From positions 1 to 31,842 of the IMG/VR virus record IMGVR_UViG_3300017788_000103: DNA of 31,842 nucleotides; one strand, written 5' to 3'. Below the pieces are notes generated by a model. The model was not told the DNA's origin. It worked only from the letters and a program-made list of their open reading frames with translations, and made no database searches. This DNA is from a virus. Each line of letters starts with the position of its first letter. Position 1 is the first letter of the stretch. The position numbers and the translations under genes are program-made. Positions 3 through 25,789 of the stretch are shown here, in pieces.

Positions 3-398
3 TGTGGGTCCTGCTGTGAGGTTAGGGATTTGAGAGGTAGAATTCTGCCAAGCCGAGGTTTTGTTTCCGTATCGGAAGATCCGAGTTATGCCTATACTTT
101 TATTCGTTCTAAGAAAGGTGTTGCATCGGATCCGAATTCGCTGGGCGTAATGTATCAAGTAGTTCTTCCGCAGGGTTCTCCAGCTCTTCCTTTGTATGGG
201 CATCGGGATTCATTGGGTGATAACATTGGAAGTGCGCCAATGGAGCAGGAAATTGTTTTGCCAAGAAACACCGGATTTCGAGTAATTGATTACAAAGTTA
301 GAACTCCTCCTTCTGGTTTCGGCAGAGATTACTTGTTCTTGTTGGTCGAGCCGGTTTTTTCTGAATCTCCCGCTTTTCGTTCGCGAAGCACTCCTTGA
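3..398 (+). CDS. ADP-ribosyltransferase-like protein, C-terminal part (5' end outside window)
   Basis: The frame is open to the left edge, so the gene begins upstream; the TTG at 30 is only an internal codon or weak start. Two elements resemble the catalytic core of arginine-type (R-S-E class) ADP-ribosyltransferases, which transfer ADP-ribose from NAD+ to a protein. The first is an STS-like strand, GFVSVSEDPSYA (near 60-93). The second, about 170 bases on, is an ExE motif in the context MEQEIVLPRNTGFRV (E-Q-E at 243-251). The N-terminal conserved Arg would lie outside the window. The gene ends TTGA just before the next gene and sits beside polyvalent-type proteins, which suggests a toxin or modifier domain ejected with the DNA, comparable in role to T4 Alt. 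That role is inference; the fold call rests on motif spacing only. Confidence 0.65.
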   Translation, partial: CGSCCEVRDLRGRILPSRGFVSVSEDPSYAYTFIRSKKGVASDPNSLGVMYQVVLPQGSPALPLYGHRDSLGDNIGSAPMEQEIVLPRNTGFRVIDYKVRTPPSGFGRDYLFLLVEPVFSESPAFRSRSTP

Positions 399-430: not shown

Positions 431-1852
431 ATGTCTACGTTTGACCGTAAGGGTTACTTCCAGGAACTTGATGGTGGCGGTACAACTTCCAGCATGACGC
501 CGGAAGAGTTGCGTCGCCACGAGTTGTTTTTGATTGAGGCTAACCAGGATCGCTACGATTACGTTTCTGATGACAATCGGCAACGTCGAGAAGCAGCCAG
601 AGCTGAGTATGGTTCATGGATTGACCCTATCCTCAAAGGCGTTCAACGTTTAGGTGCTTTTTCGGTATTGCCATTCTCGGTAGGCAACGCCATGAATGAT
701 GGGCAGAGCTTCGGCGAAGCGGTTCGTGGAACGTCTGAACGTTTTATGGAAGACCCAGGTTCTTTTACTTTTCGAGAAGCGACTGATCGTTTGCCTATTC
801 CTAATTGGTTGTCAAGTATTGGCGGCTTGGCTGCTGACATTTTTGCGCCTGGCCCGGGCGAATTTGTGCAAGGTTTAAATCTTGCATCCAATTTAGGAAG
901 TGCCGCTTCTGGGTTAGGAGCTACTGCCGCTGGCGGAGCTGCCGCTGCGATGGCGGCTCCAAGATTGGGTGGGCAAAATAATTTTTCTGATGTCATACGC
1001 GATTTTACGGATGAAGCCGTTAGCTCTAGGCAGGCGGTGCAAACCGGACAAGATCCGGTTGTGCTTCGGCAGCAAGTCGAAGAATTGGCTAATACCGTTG
1101 CTGCAAGCAATCCGGAGATGCGTAGCCTTCAAACGGCAACCAGCAGAATTATTCAGTTGGACGATCAGGGCCTTAGCCGGTTCTCCGCTTCTCTGCGTGG
1201 CATCAATCGAAATCGTAGAGCTGTTTCTACTTCTTTGAACAATGGCGGCTTTACTTATGATTTTGATCGCGGTATGGTTCCGATGATGGCCGCGCATACC
1301 GATCCGAAAACTGGCGCTAGGAACGTTGATGTGTATGGTTATGCCGTGAGTCCTTACCCGGACTTGGGCATTGCCGTTCCGGTGCAAACGTTTCCTTTGT
1401 CTAACCCTGATGCTTTGGCGGAAATTGCGACTCAATTTATTTCGGAACGTGCGCCTGTGTTGTCTCGTCCGCATCATGCTATTGGCGGATGGGTAAACGA
1501 AGGAATTTTTTATTTCGACATTTCGGTTTTGACGCTCAATCGCAATGAGGCTATTCGCATTGGGCAGCAGGCTAATCAAAAATCGGTTGCGGATTTTAGT
1601 GCTCAGTATGGCCAAGAATTTATTCCGGTTGGCGGATCTGGAGTGGCGCGGTCTTACGATCCAAGCTATCTTGCCAGTTATACAACCGGAGGCAGATTCG
1701 ATCCGACAAGTACGCATAATCCAAATCCGGATTTGCAACAAAGACTTGCCGCAGCGGAAAATTTTTACAACACGGTTATTATGCCTCAGGGTGGTCGTCA
1801 ATTGACCGGATTGACTTACGCTAATGCGCCTATTAGTAGGCGTCCGCGGTAA
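431..1852 (+). CDS. large internal virion / polyvalent-type protein, 473 aa
   Basis: I chose the ATG at 431 over the TTG at 395 because it follows a G-rich ribosome-binding stretch (GGGGGGCAGGGC) and places the conserved N-terminal peptide near residue 14, as in the 2097 gene. That peptide is DGGGTTSSMTPEELRRH (residues 14-30). Residues 135-180 are Ala/Gly-rich and hydrophobic. Residues 270-400 look like a globular domain: YDFDRGMVP, then PHHAIGGWVNEGIFYFD, then an EAIRIGQQANQKSV segment of a kind seen in large phage-encoded polyvalent proteins. No catalytic motif is obvious. The product is probably packaged and ejected with the genome (inference from neighbours and architecture). Codon choice is richer in GAA, TTT and AAA than in the terminase gene downstream. 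Confidence 0.6.
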   Translation: MSTFDRKGYFQELDGGGTTSSMTPEELRRHELFLIEANQDRYDYVSDDNRQRREAARAEYGSWIDPILKGVQRLGAFSVLPFSVGNAMNDGQSFGEAVRGTSERFMEDPGSFTFREATDRLPIPNWLSSIGGLAADIFAPGPGEFVQGLNLASNLGSAASGLGATAAGGAAAAMAAPRLGGQNNFSDVIRDFTDEAVSSRQAVQTGQDPVVLRQQVEELANTVAASNPEMRSLQTATSRIIQLDDQGLSRFSASLRGINRNRRAVSTSLNNGGFTYDFDRGMVPMMAAHTDPKTGARNVDVYGYAVSPYPDLGIAVPVQTFPLSNPDALAEIATQFISERAPVLSRPHHAIGGWVNEGIFYFDISVLTLNRNEAIRIGQQANQKSVADFSAQYGQEFIPVGGSGVARSYDPSYLASYTTGGRFDPTSTHNPNPDLQQRLAAAENFYNTVIMPQGGRQLTGLTYANAPISRRPR

Positions 1853-1863
1853 AGGAGATAATC

Positions 1864-2100
1864 ATGAAAAAAATGAGTAAAGGTTCTTTGCCGTCTCCTC
1901 CTAAGAATGCAATTCCTTTGGCGCCTTTTTTCAACACTATCTTTGGTGATAGTTTGAATTCCGAAGAGGGCGTTTTGGCTGCCATCACTTATATCAATTC
2001 AAACAAGCAGGAGTTTGCAGATTTGTTGCGTCAATACGTTGAAAATGGTGAAGACTTTAAGTTGCGTCAACGCTCAGGTGAATTGGAAAAGATTTTGTGA
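1864..2100 (+). CDS. small hypothetical protein, 78 aa
   Basis: Unrecognised. A strong ribosome-binding site (AAGGAGATAATC before the ATG) supports it, and its TGA overlaps the GTG of the next gene (GTGA), so the two are probably translationally coupled. The protein has a basic N-terminus (KKMSKG), a Pro-rich stretch, and a charged helical second half containing EFADLLRQYVENGEDF. There is no signal peptide or membrane segment. Lying between two virion-type polyvalent genes, it could be a chaperone or accessory for one of them, but nothing in the sequence shows this. Confidence 0.7.
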   Translation: MKKMSKGSLPSPPKNAIPLAPFFNTIFGDSLNSEEGVLAAITYINSNKQEFADLLRQYVENGEDFKLRQRSGELEKIL

Positions 2101-4040
2101 AGCCGTACCGGGATCAATTTTTTGACGGGGGCGGTACCACTTCCGGTATGACTTGGGAAGAATTGAGAGAACACGATGAATTTTTGAGGCTTTTGGCTGA
2201 GCGGGAAGGCATCAGCTACGAACGGCAAGGATTTTTTGATTGGCTCGGAGAACAGCGAGCTAATTTTTACGAGAATACTCCTACTGGTCAAGCTCTGAGC
2301 CGCGGGCAAGAAGTAATTAATAGAGAGTTGGATCATTACGAGCAAAGTTACATGAAGCCTTTGGCTATTGCCGGTCAAGCTTTTCAGGCTATTGGTTCTG
2401 CTATTGGAACTGATGGAAGGCAAGTGGGAAGCACTGTCTTGGATGCGGTTGCTCCTGGATTGGGCTATTTTCGGGATAGACGAAGTGGTCCAAATACCGG
2501 CGAAGAGCATGCGGCAAGATTGTTCGATTTAGTTTCGGGAAGTCCGTATGAGCCTGGCGATGTAACTGGCTATGCAATTGCCGATCAAACGGCAGCGGCT
2601 TTTTTGGATCCTACAAATTTTATTCCAGGCGGAGGAGCTGCCAATGCTACCCGAAGAAGCATGGGGCTTATTGATGATGTCATGGCTCCTGGCCTAAGGC
2701 AAGTTGCCGAAAGAGCAGAAGATACTGTGCTTACTCCGGTAAGAAAGCCCGCTAAAACTGCCGAAGAAATTGTGGTAAATCAAAATATCCAAGCGGCTGT
2801 TGATAGAATTATACCTCCAGAAAATCCGCTTTCGAATCCAGAAATCAAAAGACGATTTGATTACATGATTGATATTGGGAACCAACACGGTGCCACACGC
2901 TGGTATGGTTCTCCGGTTATTAAAGATCTTTTTTCGCGAGCTTTGAACTTTCTTGATCCTAGAGAAAGGCAAAGGCAAGTCCAGGGTACTTTGGCAATGT
3001 TTTCTGTTTTGAACGGCGCAACTAGCCCTCGAACCAAAGTGTTCAACAATATCAATAAGGCTTTGGTTTTGTTAACGAATGCTCAGGCGGGCAGACTGTT
3101 TCCGGATCTTGTTCGGATGGCTGAAGAAAATCCTCACGTGCCTAGGAAACCTAGGCGAAGCGGGCCGCCGTATAGAAAGAATAGACAAGGAGAAATGGTA
3201 GGCACTACGGTGACTCCGGAAGATGAACTATATATGCGCCTGACCAGTCCTTATGATTTGGAAGTTGGCTTGAGTGAAGCAATGTTTCCGAGCCACATGA
3301 CCAGACAGGCTTTTGAATTAGGAACATTGAGCGGGCAAAAAACCAGCTCGTTTGATTTGAATTTTGCCGCCGACGAGCTGAATCCAAATCATCAAATAGC
3401 CATTGACGCCGTTACTATCGACACTCATTTTCTTCCCCAGTTTCTTTGGGGATTGGGAATGGATTACAGAACTGTAGATGGCAGAAAGGAAATTGTCATA
3501 TTTTTAGATGTGCCGAACAAGCAAGCTTACGAACTGGAAGCCGAAGATTTTGACAAATATATCTATGGCGTAGTTTCTCAAACGCCAAGATACGCCATTA
3601 TCGAGCAAGCCGCTCAAAGGGTTGCGCGGTCTTATGGTTTGAGAGGTAGAGATTTTCAGTCTGTTCTGTGGGTCGGTGGCAAAGAAATTAGTCGTCCTGC
3701 CGACCTTAGGCCGTTTTCCGAAACTTTTATGGAGAACATGAGGATTCACGCTCAACGCCTAGGAACTAGCGTAGAAGAAGTTGCCCGAAAGATTGCGATG
3801 GGAGATTTAAAATTGGCTGATATCATGGGGCAAGATTTGGCTATGTATGCTAGATACGTAGCGGCTAACATGGCTAGCACCGATTGGAGCGAAGAGGAAC
3901 AAGAAGAGCAAGATGACGGTCGTACTGGCGGCAGTTTTGGAGCCGGCGGATTTCATACTCGCGACAGTTTTGGAGCCAGCGGAGAATCTATTGGCGGAGA
4001 TTTATATCGCATGATGGATCGTCGAAACACCGAGGAATAA
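2097..4040 (+). CDS. large internal virion / polyvalent-type protein with DUF7178-like region, 647 aa
   Basis: Starts with GTG overlapping the upstream stop. Residues 10-30 carry FDGGGTTSGMTWEELREHDEF, closely matching the N-terminus of the 431 gene. Residues about 265-530 contain a motif series I associate with the phage/plasmid family DUF7178: a WYG segment, FSVLNGATSPRTKVFNNINKA, DAVTIDTHFLP, and a final GRDFQSVLWVGGK. That family has no established function to my knowledge. The C-terminus is acidic and then Gly/Ser-rich with a near repeat (GSFGAGG and DSFGASG). Its stop overlaps the terminase ATG (TAATG). A genome-ejected host-takeover or anti-defence protein is the likely role, by inference from architecture and neighbours. 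Confidence 0.6.
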   Translation: MKPYRDQFFDGGGTTSGMTWEELREHDEFLRLLAEREGISYERQGFFDWLGEQRANFYENTPTGQALSRGQEVINRELDHYEQSYMKPLAIAGQAFQAIGSAIGTDGRQVGSTVLDAVAPGLGYFRDRRSGPNTGEEHAARLFDLVSGSPYEPGDVTGYAIADQTAAAFLDPTNFIPGGGAANATRRSMGLIDDVMAPGLRQVAERAEDTVLTPVRKPAKTAEEIVVNQNIQAAVDRIIPPENPLSNPEIKRRFDYMIDIGNQHGATRWYGSPVIKDLFSRALNFLDPRERQRQVQGTLAMFSVLNGATSPRTKVFNNINKALVLLTNAQAGRLFPDLVRMAEENPHVPRKPRRSGPPYRKNRQGEMVGTTVTPEDELYMRLTSPYDLEVGLSEAMFPSHMTRQAFELGTLSGQKTSSFDLNFAADELNPNHQIAIDAVTIDTHFLPQFLWGLGMDYRTVDGRKEIVIFLDVPNKQAYELEAEDFDKYIYGVVSQTPRYAIIEQAAQRVARSYGLRGRDFQSVLWVGGKEISRPADLRPFSETFMENMRIHAQRLGTSVEEVARKIAMGDLKLADIMGQDLAMYARYVAANMASTDWSEEEQEEQDDGRTGGSFGAGGFHTRDSFGASGESIGGDLYRMMDRRNTEE

Positions 4041-5581
4041 TGCCTAAGCCTCTAAAGTTGACCATCCCGCAGGGCCTAGAGGGTAAGTACCTTACGTTCC
4101 TAACGGATGAGCGTTTTACCGAGATGGCGTTCATCGGCGGCTTCGGTACCGCAAAGACGGATGCTCTAGTTACGAGCATCCTCCGTGACGCTTACGAGTA
4201 TCCCGGCGCAACTCTTGCGTTGTGCCGGGACGAACTCGTGAACCTCAAACGAACCACATTGGCTGACTTGCTGAGTAAGGCACCGGAGTTGACGGCGCAT
4301 CACAGCAAGACGGAGAGCGTGATTACCTTCCATCCGGTGACTTGCGCGGATGGTATTGTGCGTCAATCGAGGCTTTACTGCTTCGGTTTGATGACGGGTG
4401 ATTATAAGCAGAAGTTGAAGTCGTTGCAGCCGTTCCGCATGTACATCGACGAAGCTGACAAGATTTATGAAGAGATGCTTGACATGAGTGTCTTGCGTTG
4501 TCGTCAGAAGGTCTATCATTTTTCCTCTGGGAAACTTGGTAGGAACCAGGTGAAGATCGTCGCGAACGACGAAGGCAACAATTGGATTCATCGCAGGTTC
4601 ATTGGCGTTTCGCATCCTGGCTTGGAGATGAGTCCGGAATGGGTGCAGAAACACGTAGGCATTAAGGAGGATTTCTTTCAGCCTCGTAATGCGGCAGATG
4701 TGGTCGTTGGTGACATTGCAGTGCATGAGCATGTGCGTCGATTGGTTGAAGGCGTCTCGGATGAAGGTGCGCGTTTGGCCGGGTTGGATAAGTTGGTCGA
4801 ACCGAAAGACGTGAAGATCGTTGGTCAACGTTTGTGCATCTACGCCTTCTCGCATGAGAACAAGAGCTTGAATCAGCAGAACCTAGCTAACGCTCGTTTC
4901 GTTAGTGACGCCTTGAGGCGTCAGTACATTCTGGGTCAGATTGATACGCAGTCCGGTTTGTTGTTCCCGGAGTTCAACATTGGGGATCACGTGATTGATG
5001 AGTTCCCAATTCCGGATGAATGGCGTGTTGTTGTGGGTATTGACCATGGTCACGATCACCCTACGGCTGCCGTGTTTATGGCTGTTGATCCTTGGGGTAC
5101 GGCATTTGTGTACGCGGATTACCTGCGGTCGAATACTAGCGCGAGCGATAACGCGCAGGGAATTCTTGAGTTGGCTGGCGGTGGTCGCAAGACTCGGTTC
5201 GTGGCGGATACGCAGTTGTGGAATGCCGATCCTCGTCGGCCTTCCGAGTCGTTGGCTACGGATTACGAACGTGAGGGCGTGCGTCCGTTGATCCGTGCTA
5301 ACAAGCAACGGCAGTTGTCGGTGGATAGAATCAAGCAGGCGTTGCAGTTCAAGCAGACGATGTACGATCCGCAACCTAAAGCGCGAGTGTATTTCTTTAG
5401 GACTGCTGCGCGGCTTATCAAGTCGTTGAATTCTATCTCATGGGATAAGTTTAATGCCGGGGTTGATGATGACCTGATTGACGCTTTCAGGTATGCAATG
5501 ATGGACTTGTACCACGTGGGGTCTAGCGATACTCCGCGTGTTTTGAGGAAGCCGTTGATCCTTGATGGGAGGTACGCATGA
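4040..5581 (+). CDS. terL: terminase large subunit (packaging ATPase/nuclease), 513 aa
   Basis: This is the motor that pumps DNA into the prohead and cuts it. The N-terminal ATPase shows a Walker A-like GGFGTAKT (residues 33-40), unusual in having Ala where Gly normally precedes the Lys, and a Walker B MYIDEA (134-139) with the catalytic Glu. The C-terminal RNase H-like nuclease shows GIDHGHDH (first Asp at 335), RFVAD (Asp 390) and a terminal DDDLIDAF (477-483). Length is normal for TerL. The ATG overlaps the preceding TAA, and GAGGAA lies just upstream. No small terminase subunit is recognisable in the window. The gene is followed by fibre-like genes rather than directly by the portal. Confidence 0.95.
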   Translation: MPKPLKLTIPQGLEGKYLTFLTDERFTEMAFIGGFGTAKTDALVTSILRDAYEYPGATLALCRDELVNLKRTTLADLLSKAPELTAHHSKTESVITFHPVTCADGIVRQSRLYCFGLMTGDYKQKLKSLQPFRMYIDEADKIYEEMLDMSVLRCRQKVYHFSSGKLGRNQVKIVANDEGNNWIHRRFIGVSHPGLEMSPEWVQKHVGIKEDFFQPRNAADVVVGDIAVHEHVRRLVEGVSDEGARLAGLDKLVEPKDVKIVGQRLCIYAFSHENKSLNQQNLANARFVSDALRRQYILGQIDTQSGLLFPEFNIGDHVIDEFPIPDEWRVVVGIDHGHDHPTAAVFMAVDPWGTAFVYADYLRSNTSASDNAQGILELAGGGRKTRFVADTQLWNADPRRPSESLATDYEREGVRPLIRANKQRQLSVDRIKQALQFKQTMYDPQPKARVYFFRTAARLIKSLNSISWDKFNAGVDDDLIDAFRYAMMDLYHVGSSDTPRVLRKPLILDGRYA

Positions 5582-6537: not shown

Positions 6538-7556
6538 TGAGCATCAGTGTCTTTCCTCCGACGACAGCTAGTGGATCTATTACTTCTTTGTTTTCAAATG
6601 TTGTCAAGTTTGATACTAGCGATGTGTGGTCGCATCCTAACGGTTATTCCGTGGCTCGTCCTGTGATTGTTGTGGTGGTAGCGGGTGGTGGCGGTGGCGG
6701 CTCTGGTGGTCGACGAATTGGAACGACTATCTCTGATGCTGGCGTTTCAGTTTGGGCTGGCGGTGGCGGCGGTGGAGGAAGTGGCGGAAGTGCAGCTTAT
6801 AGCTTTTTGAATTCTAGTCAATTGACTATTACTATTGGTGCCGGTGGAGCCAAAGGCGCTTCCACGGTTTCTGCAAGTAATTTGGGCAGTACCAACGGCA
6901 ATAACGGTAGTAATGGTGGAACTAGTAGTGTTGTTCAGAACAGCGTTACGTTGGTAAGTTGTGGTGGTGGCGGCGGCGGAAAAGCCGGGCAAGCGCTTTC
7001 AGCTAGTAATTCCGGAACAATCAATATTACCGATTTTCAGGTCGGTGGGGCCGCTGGAACTAATGGTGGTTTAGCTGGTGGTAATGCGGCTAATACTAAT
7101 AGTACTCAGGATACCGCAATTGATACTCCAGCGGGGAATGGTGATGCGGTTACTGGATCTTTCAAGATTGCCGTTCCTAACATCAATTCGAGTTTTCCAA
7201 TTCCTTACTTGACCGATAACGATCAACCAAAACCTATGCCTGGAGCGGGTGGTGGTAGCACTTGGAAAACGTATGTGCTAAATAACGCTGGTACGGTTTA
7301 CGGTTCTCCTAATGCTACTGCGCAAACTCCAGCTTACGTTGATTGGTTTTTCTTGAGTCCCGGTGGTGACGGTGGCAACTTTACTCGCGCTAGCAATGTC
7401 ACTTCTGGCAATCCGGGTAGCAACGCTACTGGAATTGGTTGCGGCGGTGGTGGTGGCGGTGGATTTTGGTATAGCGCTCAAAATGTATCGGCCAACTCCA
7501 TTTCTTCTGCCGCTGGCGGCGATGGCGAAGATGGTGCCGTTTGGATTTTCTACTAA
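6537..7556 (+). CDS. glycine-rich receptor-binding / tail adhesin-like protein, 339 aa
   Basis: Several Gly clusters are separated by beta-prone, Ser/Thr/Asn-rich segments: VVVVAGGGGGGSGG near residue 50, WAGGGGGGGSGG near 75, SCGGGGGGKAG near 145, GAGGGS near 235, and GCGGGGGGGFWY near 300. This pattern resembles phage glycine-rich domains, including T-even gp38-type adhesins in which poly-Gly-II sandwiches form the receptor-binding tip. The protein is long enough to form a complete tip. It ends in hydrophobic/aromatic VWIFY. Neighbours are small fibre-like genes, which supports a host-recognition role at the particle surface. Whether it binds sugar or protein cannot be told. Confidence 0.7.
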   Translation: MSISVFPPTTASGSITSLFSNVVKFDTSDVWSHPNGYSVARPVIVVVVAGGGGGGSGGRRIGTTISDAGVSVWAGGGGGGGSGGSAAYSFLNSSQLTITIGAGGAKGASTVSASNLGSTNGNNGSNGGTSSVVQNSVTLVSCGGGGGGKAGQALSASNSGTINITDFQVGGAAGTNGGLAGGNAANTNSTQDTAIDTPAGNGDAVTGSFKIAVPNINSSFPIPYLTDNDQPKPMPGAGGGSTWKTYVLNNAGTVYGSPNATAQTPAYVDWFFLSPGGDGGNFTRASNVTSGNPGSNATGIGCGGGGGGGFWYSAQNVSANSISSAAGGDGEDGAVWIFY

Positions 7557-7564
7557 GGAGCATC

Positions 7565-7774
7565 ATGCCTAAGTACGCGATCTACCAAACTGATGTAATC
7601 GTAAATGTCATCAAAGCCAAAGATGAAGCTACGGCTCAGTTGGTGACCGGCATGAATGCCATTGAGATTGTCGATGGCGTTCCTCAAATTGATTGGACGT
7701 GGAATGCTGAAACGAACTCTTGGATTGCTCCCGTTCCTCCGGAGCCGGAAGTTATCCCGGAGGATAACTCGTGA
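7565..7774 (+). CDS. small hypothetical protein, possible tail accessory, 69 aa
   Basis: ATG at 7565 follows AAGGAG at good spacing, so a longer in-frame reading from 7541 is unlikely. The start PKYAIYQTDVIVNVIKAKDEATAQ resembles small phage tail/fibre accessory proteins that begin 'YAIIxNGVVVNVI'. It ends VIPEDNS. The VIPEDN codons form a copy of the dispersed palindrome (7751-7768), and the stop overlaps the portal GTG. Confidence 0.55.
   Translation: MPKYAIYQTDVIVNVIKAKDEATAQLVTGMNAIEIVDGVPQIDWTWNAETNSWIAPVPPEPEVIPEDNS
7751..7768. promoter_or_regulatory. palindrome copy, exact (GTTATCC-CGGA-GGATAAC)
   Basis: Perfect 7-bp arms around a 4-base spacer, the longest exact copy in the window. 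It ends 2 bases before the GTG of the portal gene, and GGAGGA inside it is the portal ribosome-binding site. As RNA, the stem would hide that site. It also encodes Val-Ile-Pro-Glu-Asp-Asn in the upstream gene. Confidence 0.7.
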
Positions 7775-25393: not shown

Positions 25394-25405
25394 TGGGGGT
25401 AGATG

Positions 25406-25789
25406 ATGGCTGACAAGACGACTTTCTGGCGTGACGCGGTGCTGAATCTTCTGCGCGGCACTAACGTCACCGGCTTCAATGCGTACGTGAGTTTGCACAC
25501 TGGTGATCCTGGTAACACTGGAGCTAACGAGGTGGCGGGCGGATCGTACGCTCGGCAGCTTGTTGGTTTCGGTGCGCCTGCGGATGATGGTGGTGTGCGT
25601 GCCGTCACGAACGCTGCCGATATTGATTTTACTGGGATGCCTGCTACGACGGTGACTCATTTCGCAATCTGGACGGCTGCCACGTCGGGTAATAGTGTGT
25701 ACAAGGAGGCGTTGGCTACGTCTCGTACTACGTTGGCTGGCGATGTGATTCGTTTGGCTGCGGGTAACTTGAAGGTTACGGAAGGCTGA
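25406..25789 (+). CDS. Gp80-like tail fibre protein, 127 aa
   Basis: Two ATGs are adjacent (25403 and 25406); spacing to the GGGGG just upstream favours 25406. The sequence is characteristic of a widespread small phage fibre/structural family: a helical start (FWRDAVLNLLRG), then YVSLHTGDPGNTGANEVAGG, SYARQLVGFGAP, NAADIDFTGMPATTVTHFAI and a final strand region. Such proteins are usually placed at the tail tip or head surface. It starts a short gap after the giant ejection protein and is followed 2 bases later by the repeat-rich fibre-like gene. Confidence 0.75.
   Translation: MADKTTFWRDAVLNLLRGTNVTGFNAYVSLHTGDPGNTGANEVAGGSYARQLVGFGAPADDGGVRAVTNAADIDFTGMPATTVTHFAIWTAATSGNSVYKEALATSRTTLAGDVIRLAAGNLKVTEG

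Follow-up and report, generated by a model that had tools for sequence, protein, structure and literature searches.

Two otherwise different proteins encoded upstream of the terminase large subunit gene (terL) of an uncultivated phage of the short-tailed type carry a common peptide close to their N-termini. This peptide is real, is kept at the protein level and is confined to residues 10-34 of the two proteins, which are termed P1 and P2. We tentatively read it as a lineage-specific N-terminal docking tag that would load effectors into the phage head, a reading to which we grant a little less than an even chance. The DNA analyzed, referred to as the window, comprises all 31,842 bases of a record from an uncultivated virus; the features discussed are collected in Table 1.

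A peptide common to the N-termini of P1 and P2

The N-termini of P1 and P2 contain the common peptide QxxDGGGTTSxMTxEELRxHxxFL, in which 17 of the 24 residues are identical. When all proteins of the window were compared with each other by blastp, P1 and P2 formed the top pair (71% over 24 aa, E 8e-5), the runner-up pair being found at E 0.039. The score of the P1/P2 pair was 82 versus 40 for the next pair when the first 60 residues of the proteins were compared (435 pairs of segments), and none of 20,000 random pairs of internal segments scored above 46. An earlier note on this DNA had reported the same peptide on the genes starting at 431 and 2097 and had regarded the remainder of the two proteins as unrelated. 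Both observations were confirmed: the two copies lie inside the first 34 residues, and no further match between P1 and P2 was found.

At the DNA level, similarity between the two genes was restricted to positions 468-550 and 2122-2207, and none was detected upstream (p 0.95) or downstream (p 0.75) of the peptide. In the peptide core, 16 of the 21 aligned residues are identical, and 6 of these 16 are encoded with synonymous codon differences. As identical residues are specified by different codons and the DNA match ends with the peptide, it is the protein sequence that has been kept. Combined, the codon differences and the restriction of the DNA match to the peptide indicate an old element under protein-level selection, and neither a recent copy nor a chance likeness.

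Table 1. Positions in the window of the features discussed in the text
Feature	Position	Strand	Remarks
ADP-ribosyltransferase, C-terminal part	3..398	+	last 131 residues, N-terminus off the left edge; match in L053
P1	431..1852	+	473 aa, ATG start; N-terminal peptide, helical middle module, C-terminal domain
Peptide copy on P1	470..532	+	residues 14-34; DGGGTTSSMTPEELRRHELFL
P1 middle module	818..1015	+	residues ~130-195, IGGLAADIFAPGPGEF...; common to the L053 ADP-ribosyltransferase cargo, weakly to the L056 cargo
P1 C-terminal domain	1397..1807	+	residues 323-459; matches in Syn5 gp45, P60 gp34, Rockstar gp76
78-aa gene	1864..2100	+	homologue directly before the L053 ADP-ribosyltransferase cargo, pairwise E 1e-18
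P2	2097..4040	+	647 aa, GTG start; cargo protein with DUF7178-like region; directly before terL
Peptide copy on P2	2124..2186	+	residues 10-30; DGGGTTSGMTWEELREHDEFL
P2 DUF7178-like region	2880..3686	+	approximate; placed via the L046 homologue
terL	4040..5581	+	large terminase subunit; constant neighbour of the cargo slot

Genome context and the variable slot beside terL

The window carries genes for terminase, portal, major head and adaptor-like proteins, with the replication genes on the opposite strand. Two adjacent adaptor-like genes (12807-13445 and 13442-14113) are possibly remote paralogues (E 0.039 in blastp). Three large proteins encoded between 17 and 25 kb matched no named family and, judging from their position and size, are probably internal or ejection proteins. 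A PHROG family 240 protein annotated as 'head protein' (25403-25789, E 7e-32) is encoded after these large proteins, distant from the other head genes. Relatives of the phage were identified exclusively by way of the major capsid protein and then of terL alignments; direct searches for relatives of P1, P2 and terL found none, and neither did a search of bacterial genome contigs.

The stretch preceding terL varies between phages of this group and serves as a slot for effector-like genes. In the window the slot contains the end of an ADP-ribosyltransferase gene, followed by P1, the 78-aa gene and P2. The fragment at the left edge scored 14.5 bits against PF03496 (ADP-ribosyltransferase exoenzyme, curated cut-off 23.4 bits) and matched the ADP-ribosyltransferase of relative L053 with E 6e-14, including the ExE-type end. 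The slot of L053 (1-1928) holds a homologue of the 78-aa gene and then a 566-aa ADP-ribosyltransferase (PF03496 E 1.9e-10), an enzyme class that includes T4 Alt. A 408-aa protein, weakly ART-PolyVal-like (E 0.073), occupies the slot of L056 (1753-2976); L046 carries there a P2 homologue with a DUF7178 domain (111-1748), and L047 a 156-aa gene and a P2 homologue (7446-9224). In L054 and L057, no such large gene separates terL from the probable small terminase gene. According to a survey, phage ADP-ribosyltransferases encoded near terminase and portal genes are likely packaged in the head (PMC9503650).

The start codon of P2 overlaps the stop codon of the 78-aa gene (GTGA), and the homologue of this small gene in L053 (1-231) overlaps the start of the L053 cargo gene in the same way. 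Conserved before two different cargo genes, the 78-aa gene could encode an escort or an antidote. The gene starts in the slot vary among the relatives, and the cargo proteins found in the slots of the relatives lack the peptide, which is thus not a general loading signal of the clade.

Residues 142-596 of P2 align with residues 87-505 of the L046 homologue (E 4.5e-50; 31% identity over 470 aa). This homologue passes the DUF7178 model (PF23802, curated cut-off 27 bits) with 32.7 bits and E 8.9e-8; P2 itself scores 8.9 bits, under the cut-off. The P2 homologues of L046 and L047 occupy the same place upstream of terL, start with MDQAAFLE and are devoid of the peptide, indicating that the peptide was acquired or lost en bloc.

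No full-length relative of P1 was found. Its middle module resembles the middle of the L053 ADP-ribosyltransferase (pairwise E 4e-4, with none of 300 shuffles scoring as high) and weakly the L056 cargo protein (p 0.017). Its C-terminal domain corresponds to a region inside gp45 of Syn5 and gp34 of P60, two annotated internal virion proteins of cyanophages, and makes up most of gp76 of mycobacteriophage Rockstar, a small free-standing protein. The context of the cargo slot and the presence of the P1 domain in internal virion proteins lend support to the idea that effectors are delivered by the virion. The predicted structures of the two proteins were of too low quality (mean pLDDT 37.5 and 38.6) and were not used, including for fold searches.

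Searches for the peptide outside P1 and P2

A search for the N-terminal pattern in other genomes, proposed in the earlier note, revealed one N-terminal look-alike, an ejection-region protein of the marine phage L022, and no other occurrence of the peptide. The pattern DGGGTTxxMT occurred in five viral contig records, in no case at the N-terminus of a plausible virion gene. Among the 35 matches to GGGxxxxMTxEEL in viral contigs, only that of L022 was N-terminal in a long gene of an ejection region. The L022 protein (9830-11395), which starts MAISRAQIPDQIDIFQEGGGASSAMTLEEL and has the peptide-like N-terminus DQIDIFQEGGGASSAMTLEEL, is the sole convincing look-alike outside the window. As it was found with a pattern derived from the peptide, its independent evidence consists of its position, its gene context and the upstream DQ/F residues. 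The start of Syn5 gp45 (MDQINLFQDG) resembles that of the L022 protein (p 0.003); P60 gp34, compared for its start, does not share it.

The proteins encoded between 17 and 25 kb carry no copy of the peptide, in agreement with the earlier note. Searches of phage records by tblastn with the peptide, a consensus and the L022 N-terminus as queries gave nothing useful, and weak matches to T7-like gp13 (E 5-10) were dropped as noise. The segment SGPSMSWDELRAF, residues 28-40 of the 156-aa protein of L047 (6976-7446), is slightly similar to the peptide; it was considered as a variant and rejected as not significant (p 0.05); the gene encoding this protein adjoins the P2 homologue.

A possible docking tag, its alternatives and known systems

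How phages select the effectors that enter the head is known at the level of sequence for few systems, among them T4. As a docking tag, the peptide would bring two different effectors, P1 and P2, into the assembling head. Its flexible Gly/Ser/Thr stretch would present the following helix (MTxEELRxHxxFL) to a partner in the prohead. The most likely partner would be the scaffold (probably encoded at 9955-10737), because in P22 the scaffold recruits gp7 and gp20, the ejection proteins, via their N-terminal portions (PMC8402733) and in T4 the signal of the internal proteins acts on the prohead core (PMC9026906). P1 and P2 would then stay with the DNA, exit via the tail and be released into the host together with the DNA. 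Carried by two unrelated cargo proteins beside terL, such a tag offers, in a phage of another type, a loading candidate that can be tested directly. The slot itself, with its ADP-ribosyltransferases, DUF7178 proteins and P1 domain, is a hunting ground for new injected effectors.

Several observations are consistent with a docking role. Firstly, conservation of the peptide is limited to the N-terminus, the peptide appears to be lost or gained as a unit, and the slot beside terL is variable; the occurrence of the P1 C-terminal domain within Syn5 gp45 and P60 gp34, both internal virion proteins, points in the same direction. Secondly, by analogy, the T4 internal proteins and P22 gp7/gp20 provide precedents for loading by short N-terminal sequences, and the survey of ADP-ribosyltransferases suggests head packaging of such cargo. 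The peptide-like start of the L022 protein may be counted in part. The absence of the peptide from the putative internal virion proteins encoded at 17-25 kb and from the slot cargo of the relatives argues against a docking tag, above all against one of general use. The earlier note had proposed a modular cargo signal; modularity is upheld by the P2 homologues that lack the peptide and by the location of its carriers in a variable cargo cassette, but the signal does not extend to the cargo of the relatives. In a wider form of the proposal, the motif [F/Q]..DGGG[T/A][T/S]SxMTxEEL would be a transplantable loading tag, independent of T4 and found in unrelated short-tailed phages (this phage, L022 and perhaps Syn5 gp45), that serves a swappable effector cassette beside terL; we regard this as decidedly unlikely.

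The peptide could also bind a common partner to another end, either keeping the effectors inactive or joining P1 and P2, the 78-aa protein, made just before P2, being a candidate escort or antidote. Both P1 and P2 adjoin the 78-aa gene, and the overlaps of this gene with the P2 start and of its homologue with the start of the L053 ADP-ribosyltransferase cargo would fit such a role. However, the L053 cargo is adjacent to a homologue of the 78-aa gene and has no peptide, nor do the P2 homologues, and this explanation seems rather unlikely. Doubtful to a similar degree is an origin by ancient shuffling or duplication of a gene start, retained as a simple N-terminal cap with no targeting role. In favour of such an origin, the two genes lie close together and the slot shows different gene starts among relatives, but the 6 synonymous differences among 16 identical residues and the lack of similarity beyond the peptide suggest selection and not a recent copy.

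Cleavage of the peptide as a propeptide, with LIE (P1 34-36) and LAE (P2 33-35) serving as prohead protease sites as in T4, is very unlikely. An L-x-E site does occur within a few residues of the end of the peptide in both proteins, but such sites are common, neither the window nor three relatives, in records that are possibly incomplete, gave a match to the prohead protease families S77 and S78, and the head-region proteins tested matched no protease family. Even less probable is an element acting in the mRNA, in which GGNGGNGGN would serve as the ribosome-binding site and translation would begin internally, at the ATG of MT. GG-rich codons are present 12 bases upstream of this ATG in both genes, but this spacing is long, a G-rich site (aggataggggggcagggc) immediately precedes the P1 ATG at 431, and the residues flanking the ATG of MT are kept on both sides with synonymous changes. 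A chance likeness, arising from a loop rich in Gly and a frequent type of helix start (MTxEEL), is strongly disfavoured by the score of 82 against at most 46 in the random pairs and by the E value of 8e-5, even though helix starts of this type are probably common and GGGxxxxMTxEE-type matches in viral contigs lie mostly in unrelated reading frames.

The proposed docking tag can be compared with known systems. The likeness to the capsid-targeting peptides of T4, drawn in the earlier note, holds in principle only: in both cases a short N-terminal sequence is common to otherwise different, probably injected proteins. The T4 signal corresponds to the first 10-19 residues and is removed by the protease gp21, whereas here the peptide occupies residues 14-34 of P1 and 10-30 of P2, the extreme N-termini differ and no S77 or S78 protease was matched. 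Loading through N-terminal parts, as proposed here, also recalls P22 gp7 and gp20, which need the scaffold (PMC8402733); unlike P1 and P2, these are DNA-channel proteins and not effector-like, and no shared peptide is described for them in PMC8402733. ADP-ribosyltransferase domains adjoin terL in the window and in L053, as for the head-packaged Alt/VIP2-type enzymes (PMC9503650), but the carriers of the peptide end in other C-terminal domains. In contrast to polyvalent proteins (PMC5512222), P1 and P2 have one recognisable C-terminal domain each, no multi-domain architecture being found; like them, they are probably injected effectors of phages with terminase and portal genes, and the L056 cargo protein is itself weakly similar to ART-PolyVal.
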